Shown: positions 1,966 to 21,629 of the stretch, one piece after another
How positions within the stretch are numbered: the first letter of the stretch is position 1
How the letters are laid out: every line of letters starts with the position of its first letter
Source: Oceanicola sp. 22II-s10i
Lineage (GTDB): Bacteria; Pseudomonadota; Alphaproteobacteria; Rhodobacterales; Rhodobacteraceae
DNA: 64,000 bases
NCBI RefSeq assembly: GCF_002210105.1
Contig: NZ_AQQU01000005.1
Location: 186,001-250,000 of the forward strand
Reading direction: 5' to 3'
Translations under genes and position numbers: made by a program
Notes under the pieces: model-generated
Database searches by the model: none
Told to the model about the DNA's origin: nothing
The model's input: only the letters and a program-made list of their open reading frames with translations

Positions 1966-2298
1966 GGCCGTCATTACTGCTCCGTTGACTATCAGGCCGA
2001 AGCTCGACGGCGCGGTATCCTGATCTTCATGCGTGGCAAGGCGATCTGCTACGACAACGGCATGGTCGAAACGTTCTTCAAGATCATCAGATCGGACCTG
2101 ATGTGGCCGATCGCATGGCAAACCCGAAGGCAGGCGGAAAACGCGAACGCCGGACACGGCGACGGGTTCTGCCATCCCGTCAGGCGGCACTCTCCGTTCG
2201 ACTTCCAGAGCCCGATAGCCTCCACGCGACAGGTTGGAGAAATGAACCGACCGCTCTGCCAAAAAACCCGGACAAGTCCATCATTTCCTCGCCGCTAA
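1966..2298 (+). pseudogene. IS3-family transposase (OrfB) C-terminal remnant
   Basis: From about 1972 the frame reads HYCSVDYQAEARRRG, then CYDNGMVETFF, then AWQTRRQAEN and NPVRRHS-like residues (here HPVRRHS). This is the C-terminal third of the DDE integrase core of IS3-type OrfB proteins, including the YDNAMVE-type catalytic glutamate motif. There is no start codon, no N-terminal two-thirds and no OrfA. Several consensus residues are changed, for example CHPVRRHSPFDF for the usual YNPVRRHS. The tail beyond about 2240 no longer follows the family. It is a dead fragment beside the catabolic locus. Confidence 0.8.
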
Positions 2299-2389: not shown

Positions 2390-3118
2390 CTAGTCTTCCG
2401 CGAAGTCGATACCGGCTTCCGGCCTGTCGACATATCGTCTGCGTGCGTTGAGGATATGGCTCTCCATCACCGCGTGAGCCAGTGCGGCATCCCCGGTTCG
2501 GAACGCGGAGATGAGATCGCGGTGATGCATCATGCTGCGGGCCATGTCCTCGTCGGAGAACGTTCCGAACGTCCAGGCCTGCAGGACCAGTTCATAGGTG
2601 TCGTTGATGAAACGTTCCAGCCTCGGCCCGCCCGCGATACTTGCGATCCGGCGATGAAAGCGGTCGTTGAGCACGGCGAGCCGGTCGCGGTCGGACGCCG
2701 ACCGGCTGCGCGATGCCGTCTCCATCTCGCTCGCCAGGGCCTCAAGCTCCGCGACGTCCTGGGCAGAGGCCCTCGACGCTGCGCGCGCGGCGGCGTGCGG
2801 CTCCAGAAGGGCGCGCAGGTCGAACACCTCCTCGATGTCCTCGCGGGACCAGTTCCTGACGTAGGCACCACGGTTCGGAATGACATCGACGAAGCCCTGG
2901 CTGGCCAGCAGCAGAAGCGCCTCGCGCGCGGGTGTTCTGCTGACGCGGAATTCGCCTGCGATCTCGGCCGCGGCCAGATGGGTGCCGGGCGGCAGGTCGC
3001 CCGACAGGATCCGCTGCCGGATCGCCCGGTGAATCCGCGCGATCACGTCAGACCCGCGGCCTTCTACCGTGCCGGGTGTCTCTGCATCCGGTTTTCCGTC
3101 ACGCCCAGCGTCGGTCAA
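2390..3118 (-). CDS. GntR-family (FadR/FCD-type) transcriptional regulator
   Basis: A 242-residue one-component regulator. An N-terminal winged helix (about residues 25-90) contains the typical FRVSRTPAREALLLLASQGF-type recognition segment. It is followed by an all-helical FCD ligand domain (about 95-230) with conserved basic and histidine residues (RFHRRIA, MMHHRDLI) that bind a metal and a carboxylate ligand in the family. The frame overlaps the end of the upstream lyase gene by 20 bases, so the two form one minus-strand unit. The start used here is TTG 3118, whose ribosome site is poor. A GTG at 3046 is the alternative. The likely targets are the divergent acid-degradation operon and its own transcript. 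Confidence 0.85.
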   Translation of the reverse strand: MTDAGRDGKPDAETPGTVEGRGSDVIARIHRAIRQRILSGDLPPGTHLAAAEIAGEFRVSRTPAREALLLLASQGFVDVIPNRGAYVRNWSREDIEEVFDLRALLEPHAAARAASRASAQDVAELEALASEMETASRSRSASDRDRLAVLNDRFHRRIASIAGGPRLERFINDTYELVLQAWTFGTFSDEDMARSMMHHRDLISAFRTGDAALAHAVMESHILNARRRYVDRPEAGIDFAED

Positions 3119-3953
3119 ACTCCCAGACCTCTTCGAATCCGATCAGCCGATTGAAATCGCCGAACTCCATGAGCTCAACGCTCTGCGGGAGGATACCGTT
3201 GCCCTTCAGCCCTTCATATACCGAAGTCGCGGCGCGCGCGGCGGCCAGCAGGCCCGTCACCGGATAGATCGCGACGGAAAACCCCATGGCAGCGTAGTCC
3301 TCCAAAGGCAGGACCGGCGTCTGCCCGCCATGCACGACGTTGACCAGCAGGGTCGCGTCGATCTCGCCGCCGATGCGCTTCAGTTCCTCGACGGACTGAG
3401 GGCTCTCGACAAAGACCACGTCGGCACCCGCCTGTGCGAAGGCACGGCCGCGCGCGATGGCCTCGTCCAGGCCATACTTGGTTCGGGCGTCCGTGCGCGC
3501 GATCACCAGAAAATCGTCCGAAGCGCGGGTGTCGACCGCAACCTCGATCTTGCGCAGCATTTCGGGCAGCGGGATGACCTGTCGGTCCGGGGTGTGGCCG
3601 CATTTCTTCGGGAAGATCTGGTCCTCGATCTGGATGGCCGAGGCGCCGGCCTTCTCATAGCCCTCGACAGTCGCCTTGACGTTCAGCAACCCGCCGTAGC
3701 CGGTGTCGGCATCGGCGATCAGGGGCGTCCGGGTCCGCGTGCAGATCTGCTCTACCCTGTCGCGCATGTCGCGATAGGTCGCGATGCCCGCGTCGGGCAG
3801 ACCGAGGGACGAGGCGATGACGCTGAAGCCGGACATGTAGAGCGCCGGGAACCCGGCCTTGTCGGCCGCGATGGCCGACACGAGGTCGTAGACGCCCGGC
3901 GCAGTGATGCAGCCGGGCCCGGACAGCGCCGCCTTGAGTTTCGGATCCGCCAT
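3099..3953 (-). CDS. Isocitrate lyase/PEP-mutase family enzyme
   Basis: A 284-residue TIM-barrel protein. The diagnostic motifs are DADTGYG (81-87), the ED pair binding Mg2+ (110-111) and KKCGH (116-120), with the catalytic cysteine in the flexible loop. KKCGH is the form found in lyases that split C-C bonds of 2-hydroxy acids, such as 2-methylisocitrate or dimethylmalate lyase, so this is a lyase rather than a mutase. The length matches methylisocitrate-lyase relatives rather than true isocitrate lyase. ATG 3953 is preceded by GGAGG. It is divergent from the acyl-CoA operon and is followed directly by the GntR regulator, so it probably handles a product of that pathway. The exact substrate is unknown. 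Confidence 0.85.
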   Translation of the reverse strand: MADPKLKAALSGPGCITAPGVYDLVSAIAADKAGFPALYMSGFSVIASSLGLPDAGIATYRDMRDRVEQICTRTRTPLIADADTGYGGLLNVKATVEGYEKAGASAIQIEDQIFPKKCGHTPDRQVIPLPEMLRKIEVAVDTRASDDFLVIARTDARTKYGLDEAIARGRAFAQAGADVVFVESPQSVEELKRIGGEIDATLLVNVVHGGQTPVLPLEDYAAMGFSVAIYPVTGLLAAARAATSVYEGLKGNGILPQSVELMEFGDFNRLIGFEEVWEFDRRWA

Positions 3954-4031
3954 GAAGCCTCCGCTGGTGTAACAATCGTGACGACAGGATTACATGCAAA
4001 GCTGATGCCAATCCAGAGAAAATAACGCACA

Positions 4032-4046
4032 TTTCGCGTTGCGAAA
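4032..4046. promoter_or_regulatory. Perfect 6-bp dyad (TTTCGC-GTT-GCGAAA), operator candidate
   Basis: TTTCGC and GCGAAA form perfect arms around GTT in the space between the divergent lyase and acyl-CoA dehydrogenase genes. A second self-complementary site, TGCATGCA, lies at 4054-4061. A GntR regulator is encoded next door, so one of these is a reasonable binding site. This is inference from position and symmetry only. Confidence 0.4.
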
Positions 4047-4145
4047 ACATGATTGCATGCACTTTGCCCCTGCGCTAGCGTCGCCCCAGTCGCAGCACGC
4101 AGGTCGAGTCGCGACTGGCGCTGCGTCGAGCGGGAGGGGATCGCG

Positions 4146-5279
4146 TTGAACGAGTCGGAAGAAGAGATCGCCGCGATCGTCCGCACGGCGCGCAGCTTCG
4201 TCGAAGACCGCCTGCGCCCGCACGAGAACGCCGTGGATCGCGCCGATCACATCGACGAGGCGCTGATCGCCGAACTGCGGGCCGAGGCGGTTGCGCTCGG
4301 TCTTTACGCTTTCAACATGCCCGACAGCCTGGGCGGCCTCGGCCTCGGCCCGCGCGCCGTCGCGGCGGTCGAAGAAGTGATGGGCCTCACCTCGATGCCG
4401 CTGGCCGAGGCCTTCGGACACCAGCCGATGTCCCTCATCCACGTGGCGGACCACCAGCGGGACTGGCTGCTGGATCCGGTGATGCAGGCCGAGAAGACGC
4501 TGGCCTATGCGCTTACCGAACCCGGCGGCGGCAGCGACCTGTCCACCATCCGCACCCGCGCGGTGCGCAGCGGCGACGGCTGGGTGCTGAACGGGTCCAA
4601 GACCTTCATCTCGCATTGCACGACGGCAGACTACATCGTCGTCCTGGCCGCCACAGACCCCGAGGCACGGCTGTCGCGCCGCCTTACGGCCTTCGTGGTT
4701 CCCGCCGACACGCCGGGGGTGGCGCTGGACGCTCCCTTCCGCAAGCTGGGCTGGCACGGCTATCCGATTGCCGGTTTCAGCCTGTCGGACGTGACAGTGC
4801 CGGACGAAAACGTTCTGGGCGAACCGGGCCAGGGGCTGGCGGTGATGATGTCCACGGTGAACACCGACCGCCGCTGGTCCGCCAACCGCGCCAACGGCAT
4901 GGCCGCGCGGCTGATGGAGCTGGTGCTGCCGCATGTGAAGGAGCGTCAGATCGGCGGCGCGCCCCTCGGCGAAAAGCAGGCGATCCAGATGATGCTGGCC
5001 GACTGCGACCTCGATCTGGAAACCTCGCGCTTGCTGGCCCTGCGGGCGGCGGATGCGGCGAATGACGCGGATGTGGCGGTCTGGTCGTCGCGCGCCAAGC
5101 TTTATGCGACCGAGGCGCTGACACGGATCGCCGACCGGGTGCTGCAGATCTTCGGCGGCGCCGGTTTCATGGCCGACCTGCCGGTCGAGCGGATTTATCG
5201 CGACGCGCGTGGCCTGCGGATCGGCGAAGGCACGTCCGAAGTCCAGCGGCTGACCATCGCAAGGGCCCTGCTGGCATGA
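4146..5279 (+). CDS. Acyl-CoA dehydrogenase
   Basis: A 377-residue flavoprotein that would oxidise an acyl-CoA to the 2-enoyl-CoA. The flavin/substrate loop TEPGGGSD lies at about residues 124-131. The C-terminal GEGTSEVQR (about 360-368) keeps the glutamate used as catalytic base by many family members. The start is taken as TTG 4146 because GGAGGGG ends six bases before it. An in-frame ATG at 4053 would add 31 residues that do not resemble the family and would run into the regulatory region. It is the first gene of the plus-strand operon, and its TGA overlaps the next ATG (ATGA). Confidence 0.9.
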   Translation: MNESEEEIAAIVRTARSFVEDRLRPHENAVDRADHIDEALIAELRAEAVALGLYAFNMPDSLGGLGLGPRAVAAVEEVMGLTSMPLAEAFGHQPMSLIHVADHQRDWLLDPVMQAEKTLAYALTEPGGGSDLSTIRTRAVRSGDGWVLNGSKTFISHCTTADYIVVLAATDPEARLSRRLTAFVVPADTPGVALDAPFRKLGWHGYPIAGFSLSDVTVPDENVLGEPGQGLAVMMSTVNTDRRWSANRANGMAARLMELVLPHVKERQIGGAPLGEKQAIQMMLADCDLDLETSRLLALRAADAANDADVAVWSSRAKLYATEALTRIADRVLQIFGGAGFMADLPVERIYRDARGLRIGEGTSEVQRLTIARALLA

Positions 5280-6436
5280 GCGGGCGCGACGCCATCGTCC
5301 TTGCCGGCATCGGCGAGACGCGGGTCGGCAAGCTGCCGGGCCTGTCCTCGGTCGAGCTGCAGGCCGAGGCGGTGATCCGGGCGGTGAAGGACGCCGGCCT
5401 CGCGCTGCACGACGTGGACGGACTGCTGAACCTCGGCCCCTATGTCCAGCCCTCGTCGATGTTCGCGACGACGCTGGCCGAGTATCTGGGCGTCAAGCCC
5501 ACCTATTGCGCCACCATCGACGTCGGCGGCACCGTGACCGGGATGACGATGATCCAGAACGCGATCTGGGCCATCGAATCCGGTCAGTGCGAGGTCGCCG
5601 TCTGCACCTTCGGCGAGAACGCCCTGACCGGCCGCGCAGTTGGCGTTCAGGGCCTGAAGATGGACAACCTGCTGGGCGGCGAGGAATGGGAAGAACCCTT
5701 CGGCGTTCAGGGCATGGTGATCCCCTACGCGCTGCTGGCGCAGGCGTGGCGCGACGAGCACGGGACGGGGGACGCGGATTTCGGCGCGGTGGCGACGGTG
5801 ACGCGGGCGCATGCCCTGCTGAACGACAACGCGCAGATGACAAAGACGATGACGCAGGAGGACTACCTCGCCTCGCGGATGATCGCGACGCCACTGCGGC
5901 TGTTCGACTGTTCGCTGGTGTCCGACGGCGCGGGCGCGGTGGTGCTGATGCGCGCGGACCGGGCGCGGAAGCTGGGCGCGCGGCAGGTCGCGGTGCGGGC
6001 CGTGGCGCAGAAGACGACGCACAATTCCGCAGCCGCCCTGCCCGACATCGCCGACCTCGGCATGGCAGAGGCCGGCGCGCGCGCCTTCGAGGCGGCGGGC
6101 ATGGGGCCCGAGGACATGGACATGCTGGCCCTGCACGACGCCTTCACCATCTCGGTGCTGATCACGCTCGAAGCGCTCGGCTTCGCCCGCCCCGGCGAGG
6201 CGGGGGCGCTGGCACGGTCGGGCGATCTGTCGCTCGGCGGGCGCTGGCCGCTCAACACCCATGGCGGGCTGCTGAGCCAGGCGCATATCGGCGGCATGCT
6301 GCATATCGTCGAGGCGGTGCGCCAGCTGTCGGGCGATGCCGGCAAACGGCAGGTCGAGGGCGCGCGCCGCGCGCTGGTCAGCGGTAACGGCGGCGTCTTC
6401 TCGGTCTGCGGCGCGATGATCCTGGAGGCGGCATGA
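5276..6436 (+). CDS. Thiolase-superfamily protein (SCP2/Ltp2-like) lacking the cysteine nucleophile
   Basis: A 386-residue thiolase-fold protein. The segment that carries the nucleophilic cysteine in thiolases reads IDVGGTVTG (about 81-89) and has no cysteine. The HDAF (287-290) and NTHGG (327-331) motifs of the SCP2-type subgroup are kept. This pattern, with a DUF35 gene immediately downstream (ATGA overlap), is that of lipid-transfer-protein/aldolase pairs such as steroid side-chain Ltp2-DUF35. In those the thiolase-like subunit performs retro-aldol cleavage of a 3-hydroxyacyl-CoA. Here it would cut the hydrated intermediate made by the neighbouring dehydrogenase and hydratase. A plain thiolytic role is less likely. 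Confidence 0.8.
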   Translation: MSGRDAIVLAGIGETRVGKLPGLSSVELQAEAVIRAVKDAGLALHDVDGLLNLGPYVQPSSMFATTLAEYLGVKPTYCATIDVGGTVTGMTMIQNAIWAIESGQCEVAVCTFGENALTGRAVGVQGLKMDNLLGGEEWEEPFGVQGMVIPYALLAQAWRDEHGTGDADFGAVATVTRAHALLNDNAQMTKTMTQEDYLASRMIATPLRLFDCSLVSDGAGAVVLMRADRARKLGARQVAVRAVAQKTTHNSAAALPDIADLGMAEAGARAFEAAGMGPEDMDMLALHDAFTISVLITLEALGFARPGEAGALARSGDLSLGGRWPLNTHGGLLSQAHIGGMLHIVEAVRQLSGDAGKRQVEGARRALVSGNGGVFSVCGAMILEAA

Positions 6437-6852
6437 ACGATCAGGCAGACCTCTGGGCCCCCATGCCCCACCCGACCGGTTTCTCGGCGACTTTCTGGGA
6501 CCACGCGGACAAGGGCGAACTGGCCCTGCCGAAATGCGAGGCCTGCGACGCGCTGCACTACCCGCCGCGCCGCTTCTGCCCCGAGTGCGGCGGTGACGCC
6601 CTGACGTGGACCGCGATGTCGGGCCGGGCGACCGTGGTGTCCCATTCGACCGTGCTGACCTCGTTCCACGGGCAGGACTGGGTCGGACAACTTCCTTACG
6701 TGGTGGTCCTCGTCGACCTCGACGAAGGTCCGCGGATGCTGTCCCGGCTGGTCGGCAGCGACACCATCGCGCGCGGCGACCGCGTCCATGTCACCTTCGC
6801 CGAGGTGCAGGGCCGACGCCTGCCCTACTTCACGCCGGAGGGCGCGGCATGA
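6433..6852 (+). CDS. DUF35/OB-fold zinc-ribbon protein, partner of the thiolase-like protein
   Basis: A 139-residue protein with a rubredoxin-like zinc ribbon (C35, C38, C49, C52; CEAC...CPEC) followed by a C-terminal OB fold. Members pair with thiolase-like or polyketide-synthase-like enzymes and are needed for their activity or CoA binding. The gene overlaps both neighbours (ATGA at each end), so it is made in step with the preceding protein. That arrangement supports a heteromeric complex. Confidence 0.9.
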   Translation: MNDQADLWAPMPHPTGFSATFWDHADKGELALPKCEACDALHYPPRRFCPECGGDALTWTAMSGRATVVSHSTVLTSFHGQDWVGQLPYVVVLVDLDEGPRMLSRLVGSDTIARGDRVHVTFAEVQGRRLPYFTPEGAA

Positions 6853-7610
6853 CCGTCGCCGTCACGACCGAGGGCCACGTGGCCGTCATCGAGATGTCCG
6901 GCGACGGGCGGCACAATCCGCTGAGCGTCGCCCTCGTCACCGCCATGCTGGCCGCCTTCGACAGTGCAGAGGTCATGCAGGCCCGCGCGGTCGTCATCTG
7001 CTCGGCCGCGAAATCCTTCTGCGCGGGGGCCAACATCCCCGACCTCCTGGGCGCGGCCTGGATGGAGGAGACGCCGACAGGCCCCGGACCCGAGGACCTG
7101 TTCGCCCGGATCGAGGCGCACGACCGCCCGGTGATCGCCGCCGTGCACGGCAACGTCATGGGCGGCGGGTTCGAACTGACGCTCTGCGCCGATCTGGTGG
7201 TGGCCGACGCGGCGACCCGCTTTGCGCTGCCCGAAACGGGGCTGGGCGTGATCCCCAACACCGCGCTGCCGAAGCTCGCCGCAATGGTGGGTGTGCGGCG
7301 GGCGATGGACATCATCCTGACACGCAGGTTGCTGAGCGCCGCAGAGTGTCACACTCTGGGCCTCGTCACCGCGGTCACGGAGGAGAACCCGCGCGACACT
7401 GCCATCGCGACCGCGCAATCCATCGTCGAAGGCGCCCCTCCGGGCGCCATCGCGGCGGTAAAGCGTGAACTGCGCCGGCTCGGCGCGACGGACTGGGCGC
7501 AGGTGCACCGCACGCTGACCGCCCTTCCGAAGGAGGAATGGCAGGAGGGCCTCAGCGCCTTCACCGAGAAAAGGCCGCCGGACTACGACGGCTTCTGGTC
7601 CGAGACGTGA
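6849..7610 (+). CDS. Enoyl-CoA hydratase/isomerase
   Basis: A 253-residue crotonase-fold enzyme. The oxyanion-hole segments are CAGANI (58-63) and GGGFEL (105-110). Both acidic residues used for water addition are present: E109 in GGGFEL and E129 in LPETGLG. It is therefore likely to be an active hydratase that adds water to the 2-enoyl-CoA formed upstream in the pathway. ATG 6849 overlaps the TGA of the DUF35 gene (ATGA). The same frame is open further upstream, but that part is the DUF35 gene read in another frame. Confidence 0.9.
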   Translation: MTVAVTTEGHVAVIEMSGDGRHNPLSVALVTAMLAAFDSAEVMQARAVVICSAAKSFCAGANIPDLLGAAWMEETPTGPGPEDLFARIEAHDRPVIAAVHGNVMGGGFELTLCADLVVADAATRFALPETGLGVIPNTALPKLAAMVGVRRAMDIILTRRLLSAAECHTLGLVTAVTEENPRDTAIATAQSIVEGAPPGAIAAVKRELRRLGATDWAQVHRTLTALPKEEWQEGLSAFTEKRPPDYDGFWSET

Positions 7611-7635
7611 CCGATACACCAGGGAGGAAAGACCA

Positions 7636-8769
7636 ATGAGACATTTCGGAAAGTTCACCGCAGCGGCGCTCTTCGCGCTGGCCGCGCCCTTCGCGGCCCC
7701 CGCATCCGCCGAAGACATCACCATCGGCGGGCTGTTCCCGTTCAGCGGCCCGAACGCCGTCTACGGTGACGTGCTGTCGTCGGGCGCCAAGCTGGCGGTC
7801 AAGCACATCAACGCCGACAAGATGCTGAGCGGCGAGCTCTCGATCGCCTACGAGGACACCCAGGCCCTGCCCCAGCCCGCCGTCGTGGCGATGCAGAAGC
7901 TGGTGAGCGTCATGAACGTGCCCTTCACCCTGTCGTCCTTCACCGGCGTGTCCAAGGCGATCGCCCCGATCGGCACCCGCAACGAGGTGGTGATGGTCAA
8001 CGGCGGCGGCGTCGGCCCCGACCTTGCCGAGCTGGGCGATTACTTCTGGAACGTCATCCCGCTCGCCAACCTCGAAGTGCGCGCGTCGGTGCCCTATGCC
8101 GTCAAGGAGATGGGCAAGTCGAAATTCGCGCTGATCTACGTGGACGACCCGCTCGGCGCGTCGATCCTGAAGGAGATCGAGAGCGTTCTGGAAGACGTCG
8201 GCGGCGAGCTGGTCAGCGAGATGAGCGTGGCGCCGACGGCGCAGCAGTTCTCGGGCCTCGCGGCCAAGGTGCGGTCCAGCGGTGCGGATGCCGTCTACAT
8301 CGCAAGCTACGGCGCGCAGCAGGTGCAGATCGCCAAGCAGCTGCGCGACAACGGCGTCGACGCGCAGATGATTTCCTACTCGGCCTACGGCGTGCCGGAC
8401 GCGATGGCCCTGCCGGAGAACGAAGGCGCGATCTTCACCGCGCAGGCGGTCAAACTCGACACCGGCGACGCGATGACCACCCGCTTCGTGGAGGACTACA
8501 AGGCCGAATTCGGCAAGGACCCCGCGCCCTACAACGTCAACTACTACAACGCGACGATGCTTTTCGCGATCCTCGCGCAGGCCCTGGAGGCCGAGGGCAA
8601 GGAGATCACCGGCGCCAACCTGCTCGCCAAGCGCAAGGAGATGCGCAGCTTTGACCTCGTCGGCGGCAACGTGTCGTTCCTCGACAACGGCACGCTGCTG
8701 TTCCCGATCGACGTCAAGGTGATCGAGGGCGGCGCGGCCAAAACGCTCGCCACCGTCGACATCCAGTAA
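7636..8769 (+). CDS. Branched-chain amino acid/organic-acid ABC transporter substrate-binding protein (LivK type)
   Basis: A 377-residue periplasmic protein. A signal peptide of about 25 residues (basic MRHFGK start, hydrophobic core, cleavage near ASA-ED) precedes a type-I periplasmic binding fold beginning ITIGGLFPFSGPNAVYG, the usual Liv opening. The ATG has GGGAGGAAAG just upstream. Despite the Liv name, many such proteins bind aromatic or other carboxylic acids. Here the genes on both sides point to the acid degraded by this operon. The 25-base gap before it and the strong ribosome site fit the higher expression expected of a binding protein. Confidence 0.9.
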   Translation: MRHFGKFTAAALFALAAPFAAPASAEDITIGGLFPFSGPNAVYGDVLSSGAKLAVKHINADKMLSGELSIAYEDTQALPQPAVVAMQKLVSVMNVPFTLSSFTGVSKAIAPIGTRNEVVMVNGGGVGPDLAELGDYFWNVIPLANLEVRASVPYAVKEMGKSKFALIYVDDPLGASILKEIESVLEDVGGELVSEMSVAPTAQQFSGLAAKVRSSGADAVYIASYGAQQVQIAKQLRDNGVDAQMISYSAYGVPDAMALPENEGAIFTAQAVKLDTGDAMTTRFVEDYKAEFGKDPAPYNVNYYNATMLFAILAQALEAEGKEITGANLLAKRKEMRSFDLVGGNVSFLDNGTLLFPIDVKVIEGGAAKTLATVDIQ

Positions 8770-8788
8770 GAACAGGTCCCGGAACGTC

Positions 8789-9658
8789 ATGCTTGCCCTG
8801 CAACTCACGCTCACCGGCCTCCAGGCGGGCGCGCTCTATGCGCTCACCGCCGTCGGCTTCTCGCTGATCTTCGGCTCGACCCGCGTGTTCCATTTCGCGC
8901 ACGGCGCGACCTTCGCCCTTGCCGCGTATCTCTTCTACGCGGTCGAGGCGGCGGGCTACGGCTTCGTTCCGGGCCTTCTTGCAAGCTTCGCGGGGGCGAT
9001 CGCCTTCGGCCTCGCGATCGACTGGTTCATCTACCGCCCGATCCAGCGCGACGAAGGCTCGTTCTTCACGGTCTTCGTCGCCTCCTTCGGCATCGGGATC
9101 GTGGTGCAGAACCTGATCGGCATCTTCTTCGGCCGCAGCTTCGTCACCATCACCTCGCCCCTGTCGCGGGCGAGAGAGGTGCTCGACGGGGTCTATGTCG
9201 CGCCGCTTGCGGGCATCGCCTTTGTCGTGGCGCTGATCTGCCTTCTCGCGCTCGGGTTCTTCCTGCGCACGACGTTCACCGGCAAGGGCCTGCGTGCCCT
9301 GTCGGACGATCCGGAGCTGGTCCGCGTCTTCGGCCTGAACCCGCGCTACCTGTCGGCGGCGGCCTTCGCCATCGGCTCGGCGCTGGTGGTGCCGGCGGCT
9401 GTCTTCACCTCGATGTCGTCGGGGCTGAACCCGGCCATCGGCCACCATGTCATGCTGATCTCGCTCGCCGCGACCATCGTCGGCGGCATCGGGTCGATCC
9501 CCGGCACCATGATCGCAGCCTTCATCTTCGGCCTTGCGGAAAACCTGTCGCTGCTCTGGTTCGAGCCGCAATGGTCCGAGGCCGTCGTCTTTGCCATCCT
9601 CTTTGCCGCGATCATCGCCCGCCCCTCGGGCCTGATGGGCAAGAGCGCGGCACGCTGA
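8789..9658 (+). CDS. Liv-type ABC transporter permease (LivH)
   Basis: A 289-residue integral membrane protein with about eight hydrophobic segments. It has the typical LivH opening (QAGALYALTAVGFSLIFG) and the cytoplasmic loop near GLRALSDDPE that contacts the ATPase. It forms the membrane channel with the next gene's product. Twelve bases separate it from the LivM gene. Confidence 0.9.
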   Translation: MLALQLTLTGLQAGALYALTAVGFSLIFGSTRVFHFAHGATFALAAYLFYAVEAAGYGFVPGLLASFAGAIAFGLAIDWFIYRPIQRDEGSFFTVFVASFGIGIVVQNLIGIFFGRSFVTITSPLSRAREVLDGVYVAPLAGIAFVVALICLLALGFFLRTTFTGKGLRALSDDPELVRVFGLNPRYLSAAAFAIGSALVVPAAVFTSMSSGLNPAIGHHVMLISLAATIVGGIGSIPGTMIAAFIFGLAENLSLLWFEPQWSEAVVFAILFAAIIARPSGLMGKSAAR

Positions 9659-9669
9659 AGGAGGGCGGC

Positions 9670-10542
9670 ATGGAAAACTATCTCGCCAATCTCGGTGTCC
9701 TGATCTGCGTCTATTCGATCCTCGCGATCACGCTGAACTTCATCATGGGCTATGCGGGCATCTTCTCGCTCGCCCACGCGGTCTTCTTCGGCTTCGGCGC
9801 CTACACGGGCGGGTTCATTGCGCTGAACTACACCAGTTCGATGTTCGTGACCCTGCCTGCCGCGATGGTCGTGTCGGCGGTGCTTTCGCTGCTGCTGGCC
9901 ATTCCGACACTCAGGGTCCGGGGCGAATACTTCGTCGCCGCGTCGCTGGGGCTCCAGATCCTCGCCGTCACTCTTTTCACGGAGTGGAAGGGGTTCACCG
10001 GCGGGATCGGCGGGCTGGTCGGCATCCCCCCGGTGTCGCTCTTCGGGACCGAGATTTTCCGCCCGACGTCCTTCGTCATCGTCACCATCGTCGCCCTGAT
10101 CGTCACCATCGGGATCTTCCACCTGCTGGTGCATTCCAACTTCGGCCGGTCGCTGCGGGCGATCCGCGACAGTGAAAGCGCGGCTGCGGCGTTCGGGAAG
10201 AACGTGCCGGTCATCAAGACCGTCTCGCTCGCCATTTCGGCGGCACTGGCGGGGATGGTGGGCGCGCTCTACGCGAGCTACCTGGCGTTCATCAACGTCG
10301 AAAGCTTCATGCTCGACACCTCGGTGCTGATCATGGCGATGGTGATCATCGGCGGAACGGGCACGCAGCTTGGCCCCATCGTGGGCGCGATCGTGCTGCT
10401 CAGCCTGCCGTCCGCAATCACCTACCTGAACTTCCTGCCGCAGTCCGAGATCGGCGCGATCCAGCAGATCATCTACGGCGCGGGCATGACGCTGCTCATG
10501 CTGTTCCGCCCCGGCGGCATCGTGGGGAGCGGAGGGAAATGA
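9670..10542 (+). CDS. Liv-type ABC transporter permease (LivM)
   Basis: A 290-residue membrane protein with about eight or nine hydrophobic segments. It has the LivM signature GYAGIFSLAHAVFFGFGAY near the N-terminus and the ATPase-coupling loop RSLRAIRDSESAA. The start ATG 9670 follows GGAGGGCGGC. The open frame extends upstream to 9571, but that part overlaps livH out of phase and is not family-like. The stop overlaps the next ATG. Confidence 0.9.
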   Translation: MENYLANLGVLICVYSILAITLNFIMGYAGIFSLAHAVFFGFGAYTGGFIALNYTSSMFVTLPAAMVVSAVLSLLLAIPTLRVRGEYFVAASLGLQILAVTLFTEWKGFTGGIGGLVGIPPVSLFGTEIFRPTSFVIVTIVALIVTIGIFHLLVHSNFGRSLRAIRDSESAAAAFGKNVPVIKTVSLAISAALAGMVGALYASYLAFINVESFMLDTSVLIMAMVIIGGTGTQLGPIVGAIVLLSLPSAITYLNFLPQSEIGAIQQIIYGAGMTLLMLFRPGGIVGSGGK

Positions 10543-11321
10543 CCATGACCGAGACCCATACCCCCGAGGAAACCCACGAGGACAAGGAAGTCCTGATGGA
10601 GCTGGCCGGCCTCGGCCGCAGCTTCGGCGGCGTCAAGGCGGTCGACGACGTGTCGATGAAGCTGCGGGCCGGCATCGTGACGACGTTGGTCGGGCCGAAC
10701 GGCGCGGGCAAGACGACGCTCTTCAACCTCATCACCGGGCAGCTGGCCCGCGACACCGGCCACATCACGTGGCTGGGGCGGCGCATCGACAAGATCAGGC
10801 CGCACGAGGCGGCCCGGCTGGGCATGGTGCGGTCCTTTCAGGACCTGCGGCTGTTCGAGAAGATGACGGTGGAAGAGAACATCATGACGACCTTCGAACG
10901 GTCGCCCCTGCCCCGCATCACCACCCCCGCGAAGCGGGCCGAGCGGCGCGAGTTCATCGACCGCATTCTCGAACGCTGCGCCCTGACCGACAAGCGCAAC
11001 ACACGGGCCAGCGACCTGGCCTATGCCGAACGCAAGTTCCTGTCGCTGGCGCGGATCATCGCCGCGCAGGGGCGGCTGTGGCTGCTGGACGAACCCGCCT
11101 CGGGCCTCGATCCGCAAAGCTACAACCGCCTGCTTGGGATCATCCGCGAGGAGGTGCAGACCGGCGTGACCGTCTGCATCATCGAACACAACCTCGACAT
11201 CGTTATCGGCATCTCGGACCGGATCGCCTTTCTCGACCGGGGGAAACTGCTGGCCGACGACACGCCGCAGGTGGTGCTGAACGATCCGAAACTCGCCTCC
11301 ATCTATTTCGGAGAACGCTGA
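10539..11321 (+). CDS. Liv-type ABC transporter ATP-binding protein (LivG)
   Basis: A 260-residue ATPase. The Walker A motif is GPNGAGKTT (52-60) and Walker B is LLDEPASGLD (182-191). The signature segment reads LAYAERKFLSLARI (160-173) in place of the common LSGGQ. Such divergence is normal in LivG proteins. About 20 hydrophilic residues precede the domain. ATG 10539 overlaps the livM stop, and an in-frame ATG at 10545 is an alternative. Confidence 0.9.
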   Translation: MTMTETHTPEETHEDKEVLMELAGLGRSFGGVKAVDDVSMKLRAGIVTTLVGPNGAGKTTLFNLITGQLARDTGHITWLGRRIDKIRPHEAARLGMVRSFQDLRLFEKMTVEENIMTTFERSPLPRITTPAKRAERREFIDRILERCALTDKRNTRASDLAYAERKFLSLARIIAAQGRLWLLDEPASGLDPQSYNRLLGIIREEVQTGVTVCIIEHNLDIVIGISDRIAFLDRGKLLADDTPQVVLNDPKLASIYFGER

Positions 11322-12004
11322 TGGCCGAGACGCTTATCGAGGTGCAGGGCCTGCACGCGGGCTACAAGGGTCATGCGGTGATCGAGGACATCGACCTGTC
11401 GCTGAACCCCAACGAGGTGCTTTGCCTGATCGGGCACAATGGCGCGGGCAAGTCGACGCTGCTGAAGTGCATGTTCGGCCTGCTGCCCCGGATGCAGGGC
11501 AACGTGCGATATGGCGGCGGCCTGACGCATGAGCAGGTCGCGCTGGTGCCGGAGGGCAAGGGCGTCTTTCCAAGCCTGACGGTGGCCGAGAACTTTGACC
11601 TCGGGCTCGACGCCGCGAAGATCAAGGGCGCAGAACGCGCGGCGCGGGTCGACTGGGTGCTGGGGGTCCTGCCCCAGATCCGCGAGTTCCTGCACCGCCG
11701 CGCGGGCACGCTGTCGGGCGGACAGGCACAGATGGTGTCGATCGGGCGGGCGCTGCTGAAACGGCCCCGCGTGCTGATCATGGACGAGCCGTCCATCGGG
11801 CTGGCGCCGAAGCTGTTCCAGGACCTGCTGGGCCCGATCCGTGCGCTGCAGCAGGCCGAGGGGCTGACGATCCTGCTGGTGGAACAGAACGTCCGCGAGG
11901 CGCTGAAGGTGTCGGACCGGGTGGCGGTGATGAAACAGGGCCGGATGGTCTGGCACGGCACCCCGTCCGAATTGAGCAACGACCGGCTGATGGAGCTCTA
12001 CTGA
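11321..12004 (+). CDS. Liv-type ABC transporter ATP-binding protein (LivF)
   Basis: A 227-residue ATPase with Walker A GHNGAGKST (38-46), signature LSGGQAQM, and Walker B with D-loop MDEPSIGLAP. It completes a two-permease, two-ATPase importer. ATG 11321 shares a base with the preceding TGA (TGATG), and its own TGA shares a base with the next ATG. Translation therefore runs straight through transporter and catabolic genes. Confidence 0.9.
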   Translation: MAETLIEVQGLHAGYKGHAVIEDIDLSLNPNEVLCLIGHNGAGKSTLLKCMFGLLPRMQGNVRYGGGLTHEQVALVPEGKGVFPSLTVAENFDLGLDAAKIKGAERAARVDWVLGVLPQIREFLHRRAGTLSGGQAQMVSIGRALLKRPRVLIMDEPSIGLAPKLFQDLLGPIRALQQAEGLTILLVEQNVREALKVSDRVAVMKQGRMVWHGTPSELSNDRLMELY

Positions 12005-13605
12005 TGCCCGACACCCGACGTCCCGCCGCGCAGCCCCTCGGGGCCGTTCTGGCCGATCTCGCCCGCGACCACGGCGACCGTGATTTCATCGTCCAGCAGG
12101 ATGACACCCGGACCACCGTGGCCGAGACCGACGCGCTTGCGGGCCGGCTGGCCGCTTGGCTGGCGGACCGCGGGATCGGCCGCGGCGATCGGGTTGCCGT
12201 CTGGTTGCCGAACCACCCGGTCTGGATGGGTCTCTTCTTCGCCTGCGCCCGGCTCGGTGCGACGCTGGTGTCGGTCAATCCGCGATACCGGCAGGCCGAA
12301 CTTCAGCACCTGCTGTCGAAGTCCGGTGCCGCGATGCTGGTGTATCCCGGCCCCGACGGCCACACCGACTTTGCCGCCGAGATCGCGTCGCTTGACGCCG
12401 ACACGCTGCCCGACCTGAAAGCGCTGACCGTCTTCCTGCCGGGCGGCGCGGTTCCGGAGGCCATCGGCCCCTGGCCTGTCACGGAACTCGACCCCGCTGC
12501 CCTGCCCGACTCCGTGCCGGACATGCAGGCCGAACTGGACGACCCGGTGATCCTGTTCACCACCTCCGGCACCACCAGCGCGGCCAAGCTGGTCACGCAT
12601 ACCCATCGGACCATCCACGCCCACATGACCGGCAACGCGCCGTTCTTCGGCTTCGACGAGGGATCGGCCTATCTCGCCGTCCTGCCGTTCTGCGGCGTGT
12701 TCGGGCTGACTGCCTCGCTCATCACGCTATGGACGGGCGGCCGCGTGGTGACGATCGAGGCCTATTCCACAACCGCCGCCGCCGAGCTGATGCACCGCGA
12801 GCGGATCACCCACATGTTCGGCAGCGACGACATGTTCGTCCGCATCTGGCACCACGACCGCACGGCCTATGCCTCGGTACGTTACGGCGGCTTCGCGCGC
12901 TTCACGCCCGGCATCGAGAAGGATCTGGCCGACATGGCCCGCGCCGGTGTGCCGCTGCACGGGCTCTACGGCGCGTCCGAGGTCAACGCGCTCTTCTCCG
13001 GCCAGCCGGACAGCCTGCCCATCGAGGAGCGGTTGCTGGGCGGCGGCATCCCCGCCCACCCCGACGCGAAGATCCGCATCCGCGATCAGGAGAGCGGGAA
13101 GCTGCTGTCGGTGGGCGAGACCGGCATCCTCGAGGTTCTGGCCCCGACCAACGCCGTCGGATACTTCCGCAACCCCGAAGCGACGGCCAAGACCATAGAC
13201 GCGGAAGGATACGTCAGCACCTCGGACCTCTGCCGGATGCGCGAGGACGGCAGCTTCGTCTATGTCGGCCGCAACGGCGACGTGCTGCGGCTGTCGGGTT
13301 TCCTGACCGATCCGGCCGAGATCGAGGAAGCCATCGAGACCTGTCCGGGGGTCGAGAAGGCGCAGGTCGTCGGCGTCACCGAAAAGGGCCGAACCCGCCC
13401 CTTCGCCTTTGTCATCACCGACGGCCCCTTCGACGAAAAGGCGGCGATCGCCGATGTCGCGGGGCGGCTCGCGCATTACAAGGTGCCGCTGTCGATCGTC
13501 GAACTGGACGCCTTCCCGACGGTCGAAAGCGCCAATGGCCTGAAAATCCGCAAGGAAGTCCTCAAACGCCGCGCCCAGGAAGCGCTGGACCGGAGCGCGA
13601 CATGA
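12004..13605 (+). CDS. AMP-forming acyl-CoA synthetase
   Basis: A 533-residue adenylate-forming enzyme that would activate the imported acid with ATP and CoA. The phosphate loop FTTSGTTSAAKLV (about 180-192) replaces the usual TSGTTGxPKG but keeps the core. GLYGASEV (about 320) and a YVGRNGDVLRLSGF-type hinge follow. The C-terminal NGLKIRKEVL carries the catalytic lysine near residue 510-520. One-base overlaps on both sides tie it to the transporter and the MaoC gene. The substrate is not evident from the sequence. Confidence 0.9.
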   Translation: MPDTRRPAAQPLGAVLADLARDHGDRDFIVQQDDTRTTVAETDALAGRLAAWLADRGIGRGDRVAVWLPNHPVWMGLFFACARLGATLVSVNPRYRQAELQHLLSKSGAAMLVYPGPDGHTDFAAEIASLDADTLPDLKALTVFLPGGAVPEAIGPWPVTELDPAALPDSVPDMQAELDDPVILFTTSGTTSAAKLVTHTHRTIHAHMTGNAPFFGFDEGSAYLAVLPFCGVFGLTASLITLWTGGRVVTIEAYSTTAAAELMHRERITHMFGSDDMFVRIWHHDRTAYASVRYGGFARFTPGIEKDLADMARAGVPLHGLYGASEVNALFSGQPDSLPIEERLLGGGIPAHPDAKIRIRDQESGKLLSVGETGILEVLAPTNAVGYFRNPEATAKTIDAEGYVSTSDLCRMREDGSFVYVGRNGDVLRLSGFLTDPAEIEEAIETCPGVEKAQVVGVTEKGRTRPFAFVITDGPFDEKAAIADVAGRLAHYKVPLSIVELDAFPTVESANGLKIRKEVLKRRAQEALDRSAT

Positions 13606-14066
13606 CGAGTCTCTACTACGAGGATTTCGAGGAAGGTCAGGTCTTCGAGAGCAGCGGGCGAACGATCACCGAATCCGACCTGACCATTTTCTCGATGGTC
13701 TCGGGTGACTGGAACAAGGTCCACAACGACGCCGCCTATGCGGCAACCACGCCGTTCGGAGAGCGGATTGTCCACGGGCCGCTTGGCATCGCCATCTGCT
13801 TCGGCTTCATCCACGCCATGGGTATCTTCGACGACAGCGTGGTCGCGATGACCGGGATCGATGACTGGACTTTCGACAAGCCGATCGTCATCGGCACCAC
13901 GCTGCACCTGCGGATGACCATCACCGGCAAGTCAATGGGCCGTTCGGGACGCACCGGAAAACTGGGACGCAGGTTCGAGCTTCTGGACCAGGACGGCACC
14001 TGTTTCCAGAGCGGTCTATCGGATGTCCTCGTCCGCACGCGGGCCAGCTTGCCCGGCACGCAATGA
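13602..14066 (+). CDS. MaoC-family (hotdog) dehydratase
   Basis: A 154-residue single hotdog-fold protein. The segment DWNKVHNDAAYA followed by RIVHGPL holds the Asp/His pair of (R)-specific enoyl-CoA hydratases. It could hydrate or dehydrate a 3-hydroxyacyl-CoA with stereochemistry opposite to the crotonase-type enzyme at 6849. It is the last intact gene of the operon (ATGA overlap with the synthetase). Confidence 0.88.
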   Translation: MTSLYYEDFEEGQVFESSGRTITESDLTIFSMVSGDWNKVHNDAAYAATTPFGERIVHGPLGIAICFGFIHAMGIFDDSVVAMTGIDDWTFDKPIVIGTTLHLRMTITGKSMGRSGRTGKLGRRFELLDQDGTCFQSGLSDVLVRTRASLPGTQ

Positions 14067-14094
14067 AATCTGCGGTGGTCTGCACCGGCATCCC

Positions 14095-14253
14095 GGAAGC
14101 GCTGCCGGTGGTCATGACCCCCTTATCCCCGACATCCATCACGAACCCGACATCGGCGGGGTGAAGCTGGGCCTGCGTAACGCGCAGGCCCAGGCGATGA
14201 TCGACGAAATCCGCGCAGGCAGGGGCCCGTGCGCCCGCACCGCGCGCCCCTAA
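14095..14253 (+). pseudogene. Remnant of an ADP-forming acyl-CoA synthetase (ATP-grasp part)
   Basis: Reading ALPVVMTPLSP and then, after a one-base shift near 14130, PDIHHEPDIGGVKLGLRN matches the conserved PVVMKxxSPDIxHKxDxGGVxLGL segment of the ATP-grasp half of ADP-forming acetyl/acyl-CoA synthetases. Only about 40 residues survive. They are frameshifted and run out at TAA 14251. It abuts the stop of the convergent ABC ATPase gene. It suggests that the operon once had, or was inserted next to, a second CoA ligase. Confidence 0.65.
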
Positions 14254-15320
14254 AGAACGACCATTCCGGCCGGATCGAATTCCAGGAAGACACGGGCGCC
14301 GACATCGTGAAGGTCGGAAGGCAGCGCGCTGACCCTTAGGCTCTGCCGCGCGCCCTCGGGCCGCACGACGTAATCCCAGTTCTCGCCCAGATAGGACCGC
14401 TCCTCGATCACGGAAGGCACCACGGGGCGTCCCTGCACGGCCTGTGAGGGCTCGGCGATCAGCCGGAGGAGCTGCGGCCGGACCGAGAATTCCATTTCCC
14501 CCTCGCGATTGCCCACCTCGGCGGAGAAATACTTCGCATCGACCTTGTAGCCGCCGAAATCGAGCCCGCCGTTGACGCGGGTGGCGCCCACGAGGTTGGT
14601 CCGCCCTATGAAACCCGCCACGAAACGGCTGCGGGGATGGTTGTAGAGGTCGAAGGGCGTGTCCACCTGCTCGATCCTTCCGTTGTTCATCACCGCGATC
14701 CGGTCCGAGGCGACCATTGCCTCGCCCTGGTCATGGGTGACGTAGACCGTGGTGATGCCGAATTCGTCGTGCAGGCGGCGGATTTCGAAGCGCATCTCCT
14801 CGCGGAGGTTGGCGTCGAGGTTCGACAGCGGCTCGTCGAGCAGCAACACACCCGGACGGACGACGATGGCGCGGGCCAGCGCCACGCGCTGCTGCTGGCC
14901 GCCCGACAGTTCCGCGGGATAGCGGTCGGCGAGGTGGTCCATGCGGGTGATGCGAAGGATATCCTTCACCTGCCGGTCGATCTCGGGTTTCGACAGCTTC
15001 CTCAGCTTCAGCCCGAAGCCCACGTTCTGCGCCACCGTCATGTTCGGCCAGATCGCGTAGGACTGGAAGATCATCGACATGTCGCGCCGTTCCGGCGGCA
15101 GCGATGTCTGGGCCGAGGACAGCACCCGGTCGCCCATCGAGATCGTGCCGCCTGTCGGGCGGATGAAACCGGCGATCATCCGCAGCGTGGTGGTCTTGCC
15201 GCAGCCCGACGGACCGAGCAGCGAGACGAACTCTCCCTCTTCGATGCTCAGGTCGATCTGGTCGACGGCCACGGCCTCGCCGTAGTGCTTGGAGATGCCG
15301 CGCAGGTCCAGCTTGCTCAT
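14250..15320 (-). CDS. ABC transporter ATP-binding protein (FbpC/PotA type)
   Basis: A 356-residue ATPase. Walker A GPSGCGKTT lies near residue 40, the Q-loop is FQSYAIWPNMTV, the signature LSGGQQQRVALARA, and Walker B and D-loop LLLDEPLSNLDA. A C-terminal TOBE-type domain follows (about 240-356). The frame is open far upstream, but ATG 15320 starts the family homology and sits in an ATGA overlap with the permease stop, so translation is coupled. Transporters of this class take up iron(III), polyamines, thiamine or phosphonates. The ligand is not clear here. Confidence 0.92.
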   Translation of the reverse strand: MSKLDLRGISKHYGEAVAVDQIDLSIEEGEFVSLLGPSGCGKTTTLRMIAGFIRPTGGTISMGDRVLSSAQTSLPPERRDMSMIFQSYAIWPNMTVAQNVGFGLKLRKLSKPEIDRQVKDILRITRMDHLADRYPAELSGGQQQRVALARAIVVRPGVLLLDEPLSNLDANLREEMRFEIRRLHDEFGITTVYVTHDQGEAMVASDRIAVMNNGRIEQVDTPFDLYNHPRSRFVAGFIGRTNLVGATRVNGGLDFGGYKVDAKYFSAEVGNREGEMEFSVRPQLLRLIAEPSQAVQGRPVVPSVIEERSYLGENWDYVVRPEGARQSLRVSALPSDLHDVGARVFLEFDPAGMVVL

Positions 15321-17062: not shown

Positions 17063-17085
17063 TGGGTCCTCGTGAAAATTGTGTG

Positions 17086-17120
17086 GCCCGCCGCCGCGGT
17101 CAGGTCACTGCGGCGGGCCG
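17086..17120 (-). promoter_or_regulatory. Stable hairpin between binding-protein and permease genes
   Basis: GGCCCGCCGC (17086-17095) and GCGGCGGGCC (17111-17120) are perfect 10-bp arms around a 15-base loop. A second GC-rich stem follows at about 17121-17150. There is no T-run. The position, just upstream of the permease start in an otherwise compact minus-strand unit, is unexpected for a terminator because the binding-protein gene lies on the same strand at lower coordinates. It would sit between the permease/ATPase and binding-protein transcripts and could stabilise mRNA ends. Confidence 0.4.
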
Positions 17121-17167
17121 GGCGGCGCGTTCGCCGGGCCGCCGGAGCGGCCCGCGGAGAGGAAGCG

Positions 17168-18193: not shown

Positions 18194-18316
18194 TTGGTCT
18201 CTCCTCCCATTGTCTCCGGTTCCCTGCCGCCGCGTCCCCTCCGGTCGCGGTGCGGCCGGGCGACCGCCTTGCGCCCGCGTGCCGCGGGCCGTGCATGCGT
18301 CTGACCCGTCATGGGG

Positions 18317-19546: not shown

Positions 19547-19646
19547 GTCGTGCTCCTCCCACCGGGAATGGCCCGGCTCCGGATCAGCGTGGAGAGAATG
19601 GTCGGACCGAACAAGGTGCAGGAACTGACCGTCGTTGCAGTTTTTC

Positions 19647-20492: not shown

Positions 20493-20643
20493 CTTTCCGC
20501 TCACCTCTTCCACGTCCCTGTTCATGCCCCGCCCGGTCTTGTCGCAACCACGGGGCCGAGTACCCTCTTCCCCGGGACCGGCGCGGGACATGGCAGGTTT
20601 GCTCAACTGTCCGTGCCGTCCGGGAAACACGGAGATCCGGCCA

Positions 20644-21627: not shown

Positions 21628-21629
21628 TC

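Follow-up and report, generated by a model that had tools for sequence, protein, structure and literature searches.

A candidate import and retro-aldol degradation operon for small carboxylic acids in Oceanicola sp. 22II-s10i

Introduction

Acids branched at the beta-carbon block normal beta-oxidation, as their hydrated intermediate is not oxidisable. To our knowledge, the bypass of this block by aerobic bacteria, which would concern naphthenic, terpenoid and plant acids, is known for few cases. An operon of Oceanicola sp. 22II-s10i (Rhodobacteraceae) raises the question of how such a chain might be cut. It lies in a stretch of 64 kb (contig NZ_AQQU01000005.1, positions 186,001 to 250,000), called here the window, to which all coordinates refer; labels in L and G denote sampled loci and sampled genomes, respectively. 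The operon encodes a Liv-type importer, a coenzyme A (CoA) ligase, an acyl-CoA dehydrogenase (ACAD), two hydratases and a thiolase-like protein with a DUF35 partner. The genes of a GntR-family regulator and a C-C lyase are divergent from it.

In the model proposed here, the Liv-type ATP-binding cassette (ABC) transporter would import a small carboxylic acid, which the ligase would activate to its CoA ester. ACAD would then introduce an alpha,beta double bond, and the crotonase and/or the MaoC protein would hydrate it; the resulting beta-hydroxyacyl-CoA would most likely be a tertiary alcohol. Since a tertiary alcohol is not oxidisable to the ketoacyl-CoA, the chain would not be thiolysed; instead, the thiolase-like/DUF35 pair would perform a retro-aldol cut, releasing acetyl-CoA and a ketone (or aldehyde). 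The substrates would be 3-branched or cycloalkyl-acetic-type acids, GntR would act at two sites 63 bp apart, and the lyase would have been recruited locally as an accessory, perhaps to act on a hydroxy-diacid further down the pathway. The whole model of ligation, dehydrogenation, hydration and retro-aldol cleavage, with branched acids as the substrate class, is given a probability of slightly under one half (about 0.48). Gene content, order, motifs, conservation and the decay of the pair in a related genome, G101, were read from sequence; reaction order, substrate class and regulation were reasoned. A retro-aldol cut would explain why no 3-hydroxyacyl-CoA dehydrogenase was seen, why the thiolase-like protein has lost its Cys and why ACAD has a Gly, as well as the exchange of the pair for an enzyme of the citryl-CoA-lyase type.

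The thiolase-like protein and its DUF35 partner

The thiolase-superfamily protein (5276..6436, plus strand; Pfam Thiolase_C_1, 162 bits) is a predicted retro-aldolase with an HDAF motif and without a nucleophile Cys. Its best solved relatives by sequence and fold are, in this order, 4u4e, CtSal (9myr) and TcLtp2 (6ok1), and an AlphaFold model confirms the fold. At the position where 7yvy and 6hsj have the nucleophile Cys of thiolases, the protein has Gly85 in one alignment and Thr86 in another (VGGTVTG). A motif table and a tree were built from 53 rows, namely the 19 members of the HDAF clade, 32 other Cys-less sequences (28 family loci, L049, 4u4e, CtSal and TcLtp2) and two Cys thiolases. The nucleophile Cys of SCP2-type thiolases is absent from all 19 clade members, the window's included. 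The window protein and its 18 orthologs share GGTV(T/S)(G/A)M, HDAF and NxHGGLLSQAH, as well as SGNGGxFxxCG where that end is present. The catalytic-Tyr motif YD(A/C/S/H)(F/Y), present in 32 of the 32 other Cys-less rows, is missing from all 19 HDAF members. In the tree, the HDAF sequences form a single clade (support 100/100), and the Cys-less side, with CtSal and TcLtp2, is split from the two Cys thiolases (100/98); with several characterised rows on long branches, the exact sister of the HDAF clade is unsure.

The DUF35 partner (6433..6852, plus strand; zf-ChsH2, 47.2 bits; OB_ChsH2_C, 57.6 bits) combines a zinc ribbon of the Cys4 type (C-x2-C-x10-C-x2-C) with an oligonucleotide/oligosaccharide-binding (OB) fold. 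Cys4 is found in 18/18 of the loci L031-L049 that have a DUF35 match, the stretch of L047 having none. Both marks of the Ltp2/Sal type are therefore present, that is, the loss of the nucleophile Cys and a DUF35 partner. According to an extract of PMC12502768, DUF35 is required for the aldolase activity of Ltp2 in C. testosteroni. The cleavage pair of retro-aldol type that had been proposed from a first reading of the window is supported to the extent that its Cys-less thiolase fold and DUF35 partner side with Sal and Ltp2; its function is a prediction.

The acid-base residues are Tyr302 and Cys304 in CtSal, and Tyr294 and Tyr344 in TcLtp2 (extract of PMC12329534). With HDAF and no Cys, the window clade thus has neither the thiolase nucleophile nor these acid-base residues. 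In an alignment of 19 rows (L049 included, L047 excluded), His337 is invariant, and His287 is kept by all rows except L049. These two His are the obvious candidates to stand in for the Tyr/Tyr or Tyr/Cys pairs of the known aldolases. A wider proposal, tentative and open to serious doubt, is that thiolase-derived retro-aldolases include a third catalytic type, represented by the HDAF clade. Protons would be transferred by His287 in HDAF and His337 in SQAH, and no catalytic Tyr would take part. The enzyme would be functionally exchangeable with the citryl-CoA-lyase type and would open an aerobic route, not described before, on which beta-branched or cycloalkyl acids lose acetyl-CoA and no carboxylation is needed. 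Members of the clade occur in Azospirillum, in several betaproteobacteria and in the genome of the window, and G101 retains a decayed remnant.

The dehydrogenase and the hydratases

ACAD (4146..5279, plus strand, TTG start; Acyl-CoA_dh_1, 134.3 bits) carries the motif RIGEGTSE and reads IGEGTSE where SCAD reads IYEGTSE, with Gly at the position of Tyr. In human isovaleryl-CoA dehydrogenase (IVD), G406-A407 leaves space for a branch at C-beta, whereas ACADM has Y400-E401 (extract of PMC12369846). The Gly of RIGEGTSE is found in 16 of the 16 sequences at least 45% identical, the window's included. Among more distant dehydrogenases, L003 (36%) has IGEGTSE, L004-L008 have IGGGTSQ or GGGTSQ where this part was read, and L014, L016, L018, L022 and L025 have Tyr. 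The Gly is suggestive of a pocket that could accommodate a beta-carbon branch, and corresponds to half of the arrangement in IVD.

Two hydratases of different folds had been recognised earlier, and both assignments stand. The crotonase-fold enoyl-CoA hydratase (6849..7610, plus strand; ECH_1, 142.7 bits; GGGFEL, LPETGLG) keeps both of the Glu positions that have catalytic roles in this fold. The MaoC-fold hydratase (13602..14066, plus strand; MaoC_dehydratas, 75.9 bits) has the catalytic D-x4-H residues of its family (GDWNKVH).

Conservation of the operon and its control region

The idea of a cluster common in its family is rejected, as ACAD matches with E<=1e-90 occur in only 2/295 family genomes, which are the window's own and G101, from another genus of Rhodobacteraceae. 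At E<=1e-85, matches were found in 2/385 class genomes and 1/398 phylum genomes, with the window's own genome counted in each; scoring in these ACAD searches was confined to the four to six best first-look candidates per genome. Thiolase-type matches (E<=1e-60) are present in 30 of the 295 family genomes, and only the G101 remnant exceeds 42% identity besides the window.

G101 repeats the order of the window: GntR, then, divergent from it, ACAD, the thiolase-like protein, DUF35, crotonase, LivK, LivH, LivM, LivG, LivF, the ligase and MaoC. The check suggested by the earlier note, a search for this gene order in other Rhodobacteraceae, found it in G101, with the GntR gene (81% identical to the window's) again divergent from the ACAD gene. 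Identity between the two is 80-93%, except for the thiolase-like/DUF35 pair (53-54%, fragmented). In the nine intact genes, 0.88-0.96 of codon positions 1 and 2 are identical, and 0.34-0.69 of fourfold sites; consequently, these genes have been under selection since the window and G101 split. As the plus-strand order and the divergent GntR are both kept, the arrangement is more than chance, and the idea of one catabolic unit for import and degradation is supported.

The regulator gene (2390..3118, minus strand; FCD, 92.8 bits; GntR, 57.9 bits) encodes a GntR-family protein with an FCD domain, has a TTG start and overlaps the open reading frame (ORF) of the lyase by 20 bases. Two operator-like sites on the plus strand match ATTRCATGCA, ATTACATGCA (3989..3998) and ATTGCATGCA (4052..4061). 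Both are conserved between GntR and ACAD in the window and in G101, with a spacing of exactly 63 bp in each. The motif occurs twice in the 64 kb, 0.08 occurrences are expected, and two were reached in 1/100 shuffles. On these grounds the sites are putative GntR operators.

Homologous loci and their transporters

A contig scan with the thiolase-like protein retrieved 19 loci, namely four of Azospirillum, fourteen others and one of a Chloroflexi metagenome-assembled genome. Identity is 73-74% in Azospirillum, 63-67% in beta- or unplaced proteobacteria and 42% in the Chloroflexi genome. An ACAD ortholog (50-56%) is present in eight of the 18 orthologous loci L031-L048 (L031-L034, L038, L043, L045 and L046). 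In nine (these eight and L042), a crotonase ortholog (45-53%) lies near the pair. Dehydrogenase, crotonase and pair thus recur together without forming a fixed set.

The transporters differ between lineages. In L042, L043, L045 and the four Azospirillum loci, the pair is accompanied by Liv genes that share 28-35% identity with those of the window and at least 56% within their own group. L038, a short contig, and L046 have receptors of the tripartite type and no Liv match, and a major facilitator superfamily (MFS) gene is found in L058, L059 and L061. The separation of Liv and enzyme genes in orthologous loci, which would count against a single unit, is thus seen in part: G101 keeps the coupling, and elsewhere the enzymes go with non-orthologous Liv, tripartite-type or MFS genes. 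The Azospirillum and Paralcaligenes clusters add a CoA-transferase III, a protein similar to 3-hydroxy-3-methylglutaryl-CoA (HMG-CoA) lyase and an Amidohydro_2 protein.

Amidohydro_2 proteins occur in both versions of the cluster, with the pair and with the citryl-CoA-lyase type (L031 13591-14415, L042, L043, L057 11910-12746). They are 56-73% identical among the compared pairs, were not found in the window, and have weak solved relatives that are mostly named aromatic acid decarboxylases. A PrpR-type sigma-54 activator, assigned by Pfam, flanks the Azospirillum cluster (L031) where the window has GntR, and a 55% relative of it stands beside the Rubrivivax cluster (L046).

Exchange of the cutting enzyme

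A search of plasmids with ACAD gave seven records (48-51% identity), five of which were examined: L057 (Ochrobactrum MT180101), L058 and L061 (Paraburkholderia), L059 (Caballeronia NK8) and L060 (Variovorax). All five stretches contain a crotonase and a protein of the citryl-CoA-lyase type, and the thiolase-like/DUF35 pair has no match there at E<=1e-12. The crotonase is 45-47% identical in four stretches and is matched in segments of 42-55% in L059. The citryl-CoA-lyase-type protein has a citrate synthase domain and scores above the NF004868 cut-off in both cases tested. Citryl-CoA, too, belongs to the tertiary beta-hydroxyacyl-CoAs. Among loci with an ACAD at least 45% identical, ten have the pair (the window, G101 in decayed form, L031-L034, L038, L043, L045 and L046), five have the citryl type and none has both. 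In L053/L081, an ACAD of 45% is accompanied by a thiolase of 37% on the other strand.

These clusters resemble the window in their dehydrogenase and crotonase and, in Ochrobactrum, in a Liv set that shares 45-54% identity and the K-H-M-G-F order with that of the window; L060 encodes a tripartite-type receptor as well as a different Liv set, which lies on the opposite strand. They differ in that a lyase of citrate-synthase fold replaces the pair, and in added genes for electron transfer flavoprotein (ETF) and a thioesterase or amidohydrolase. No published account of them was found in a limited literature search.

The first 330 bases of contigs C6 and C10 of the window's genome (L063, L064) hold pieces of a citryl-CoA-lyase-type gene, 53% identical to the Paraburkholderia enzyme over ~108 residues, so that this genome may carry such an enzyme elsewhere. 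The cluster of L059 (Caballeronia sp. NK8 pNK84, 11151-17730) is annotated in many short pieces, and its crotonase and ETF matches are segmented, a pattern that would fit a copy in decay or one that was badly sequenced.

Observations that weigh against the model

Several observations count against a retro-aldol pathway for branched acids. HDAF was seen here in no characterised aldolase, and HDxF is the motif of the sampled true thiolases; aldolase activity of an HDAF protein is, from its sequence, a guess. The active-site region of the AlphaFold model is weak, with a mean predicted local distance difference test (pLDDT) score of 69.6 and values below 50 at 248-289 and 330-338, and loops this poor allow no geometric test of His287 and His337. 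The argument for a beta-branch concerns one residue; the second pocket position of ACAD is Glu, as in ACADM, and not the Ala of IVD.

Gene content adds to these points. In eight of the 18 orthologous loci (L035, L037, L039, L040, L041, L044, L047 and L048), an ACAD ortholog is missing from the 4-10 kb covered upstream; in L036 and L042, the contigs end too near the pair to judge. These eight loci speak against a "constant core" of pair and dehydrogenase. The pair of L037 is practically identical to that of L038, yet ACAD has been lost and the crotonase is reduced to a piece of 50 residues. L041 and L044 carry a citryl-CoA lyase adjoining the pair, with no ACAD ortholog in view; thus, the two cutting enzymes are not always alternatives. 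The crotonase remnant of L037 (11652-11801) directly follows DUF35, a mirror image of the decay in G101. In L041 (8794-11551) and L044 (4668-8713), the citryl-CoA-lyase-type gene and the HDAF pair are neighbours on one strand.

Finally, the pair has decayed in G101 while the other nine genes stay constrained. Its thiolase remnant is split over two frames (0.74 and 0.84 identity at codon positions 1 and 2; 0.58 and 0.53 at fourfold sites), and the DUF35 match starts near residue 64 (0.72 and 0.50, respectively), so that the zinc motif lies outside it. This remnant is the one thiolase-type match of G101 at E<=1e-60 (6/17 candidates scored), and the genome also has a relative of citryl-CoA lyase (33%). 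Either the pair is dispensable in G101, or replaced by another cutting enzyme, or the operon is being lost.

Alternative readings

The earlier note had joined all 13 genes in one pathway, the last hydroxy-diacid or malate-like product of which is cut by a lyase of the methylisocitrate type. The lyase (3099..3953, minus strand; PEP_mutase, 156.9 bits) belongs to the isocitrate lyase/phosphoenolpyruvate (PEP) mutase family and is perhaps of an alkylmalate type. It is divergent from the same control region as the operon, the one that holds the two operator-like sites, and its FPKKCGH aligns with the KKCGH-type motif, which has a catalytic role in the lyases of this superfamily. KKCGH is also kept with respect to its best solved relative, the petal death protein 1zlp. 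Assignment to this superfamily is therefore supported, whereas identity with PrpB, the methylisocitrate lyase, is not, as the score against its model is 253.7 bits and the curated equivalog cut-off is 354.4.

The place of this lyase at the end of the pathway found no support. It has no match in G101 at E<=1e-30, and the interval from GntR to the operators of that genome resembles it at best over 23 bases (E 0.015). Nor has it a match at E<=1e-4 within the covered stretches of the 19 loci L031-L049; some of those genomes have relatives at other places, with 57% identity in G1026 and no more than 44% in G1023, G1024 and G1025. A lyase relative was found in 48 plasmid records, and its context was examined for three of them and for G1026. 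In Bosea, a relative of 61% clusters with a citryl-CoA lyase, a ligase and a Liv set, which would suit a shared pathway. By contrast, the relatives of Skermanella and Azospirillum brasilense (57%) cluster with LeuC/LeuD-like genes, and the gene beside that of G1026 is LeuC-like by eye, so the lyase looks like a portable module with another reaction. It appears to have been added locally, probably for alkylmalate-like acids, rather than to define where the pathway ends. A pathway of 13 genes that ends with this lyase is consequently unlikely.

Less probable still is ordinary beta-oxidation by a true thiolase, with Thr86 or Cys378 as its nucleophile and a 3-hydroxyacyl-CoA dehydrogenase supplied from elsewhere in the genome. 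The two Cys thiolases of the motif table read HD(A/C)F, so the HDAF clade does carry the HDxF histidine of SCP2 thiolases; a later His (QAH) also resembles a thiolase histidine, and Cys378 is nearly invariant in the 19-row alignment. Nevertheless, Cys is absent at the nucleophile site throughout the clade, and the tree places the protein with Sal and Ltp2. Moreover, no 3-hydroxyacyl-CoA dehydrogenase family matched among the ten scanned window proteins (the other three are Liv subunits), and none was seen by eye in five homologous loci or in the annotation of L057-L059, where no dedicated scan was made.

The degradation of steroid or bile acid side chains, in the manner of Sal/Shy and Ltp2/ChsH2, would suit the nearest characterised enzymes in sequence and fold, and also the DUF35 partner. 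In Comamonas testosteroni, the bile acid aldolase Sal-Shy likewise has a Cys-less thiolase fold, a DUF35 partner and a place after the hydratase (extract of PMC12329534). Sal reads YDCY in place of HDAF, and the DUF35 protein of the window is separate and Cys4, neither Cys3His1 nor fused to MaoC. Ltp2-ChsH2, with ChsE1E2 and ChsH1H2 (igr-type), shares with the window the order of dehydrogenase, hydratase and aldolase, the ketone end and a Cys4 DUF35 (extract of PMC12502768). Ltp2 has YDHF and Tyr344 where the window protein has HDAF and His337, and the window adds a crotonase, a Liv importer and a dehydrogenase of one subunit. Given the missing catalytic Tyr of both steroid aldolases, the single dehydrogenase and MaoC genes, the unfused DUF35 and the Liv, tripartite or MFS genes nearby, a steroid route is most improbable. 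For the operon, the best model is that the logic of ChsE/ChsH/Ltp2 is applied to small acids.

Other thiolase-fold complexes form carbon-carbon bonds, and the fold matches include PhlABC and an archaeal complex of thiolase and HMG-CoA synthase, but that the pair runs forward in biosynthesis, forming a bond by aldol or Claisen-type chemistry, is hardly credible for a unit in which genes for uptake stand together with those of a ligase, a dehydrogenase and a GntR regulator.

Relation to known pathways and significance

In the degradation of ibuprofen, IpfD works with IpfE, a DUF35 protein, and with a ring dioxygenase, without a dehydrogenase-hydratase pair. The two resemble the window pair by description. 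The action of the ipfDE-encoded thiolase yields propionyl-CoA (extract of PMC9195938). The itaconate pathway (Ict, Ich/RipB, Ccl) resembles the window in a weak match of MaoC to the itaconyl-CoA hydratase Ich/RipB (53 bits, below the curated cut-off of 340) and in a C-C lyase nearby. It differs in using a transferase where the operon has a CoA ligase, and its lyase, Ccl, is of another superfamily than the window lyase. Neighbours in related loci (an HMG-CoA-lyase-like protein and CoA-transferase III in Azospirillum, citryl-CoA lyase elsewhere) suggested routes for tricarballylate, 3-methylglutarate or itaconate, and nothing ties these to the window. A route for cyclohexylacetate ends in a lyase that forms cyclohexanone. 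CHAA is used as a compound name in an extract of PMC13188881. In the literature on cyclohexylacetate, naphthenic acid, citryl-CoA lyase, ibuprofen and thiolase/DUF35 systems, no match to the gene set appeared in titles and the starts of abstracts; the earlier statement that no named pathway has this composition agrees with this, since none stood out.

The operon is of a known kind, a thiolase-like/DUF35 aldolase cluster. As far as the literature searched shows, its active-site type, its small-acid setting and the exchange of modules are new. If the retro-aldol model is correct, a compact and transferable gene set would serve as a marker for the degradation of beta-branched acids, and the steroid aldolases would have a small-substrate relative with a new active-site arrangement. 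Two unrelated enzymes, of the citryl-CoA-lyase and thiolase types, would then be expected to make the same cut.

Organization of the locus and its surroundings

All 13 genes listed before with their positions, two on the minus strand and 11 on the plus strand, were confirmed, with no internal stops in the 13 frames. The HAAT/Liv importer is complete in one unit, with a binding protein, two permeases and two ATPases, all encoded on the plus strand. The LivK-type binding protein (7636..8769; Peripla_BP_6, 178.8 bits) and the LivF-type ATPase (11321..12004; ABC_tran, 100 bits) were assigned by Pfam, and the other three by homology to annotated genes of Ochrobactrum MT180101. These are the LivH-type permease (8789..9658; 92% to the G101 gene, 51% to a branched-chain permease of Ochrobactrum), the LivM-type permease (9670..10542; 91% and 54%) and the LivG-type ATPase (10539..11321; 93% and 51%). 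The AMP-dependent acyl-CoA ligase (12004..13605, plus strand; AMP-binding, 196 bits) is PRK06164-like, scoring 539.3 bits against NF004814, the cut-off of which is 677.

The tight spacing noted before stands, and the count of junctions under 30 bases rises from nine to ten of ten when the ATG starts at 9670 (LivM) and 11321 (LivF) are used. From 5' to 3', the ten plus-strand junctions measure -4, -4, -4, +25, +19, +11, -4, -1, -1 and -4 bases. No terminator-like site falls between plus-strand genes, the two plus-strand matches lying within LivK and the ligase. A scan of 3900-14400 gave no sigma-70-type promoter, and the base composition gave no sign of an island.

Beyond the GntR gene, a short ORF (2029-2298, plus strand) has only a sub-threshold, unrelated Pfam match; its text YDNGMVETFF is reminiscent of IS3-type transposases. 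On the other side, a second, convergent unit (14250-22412, mostly minus strand) encodes an ABC importer of the SBP_bac_6 type (binding protein, permease and ATPase), a CoA-transferase III, an alpha/beta hydrolase and a crotonase. A LysR gene (20644-21627, plus strand) accompanies this unit, the CoA-transferase of which is 39% identical to that of the Azospirillum cluster.

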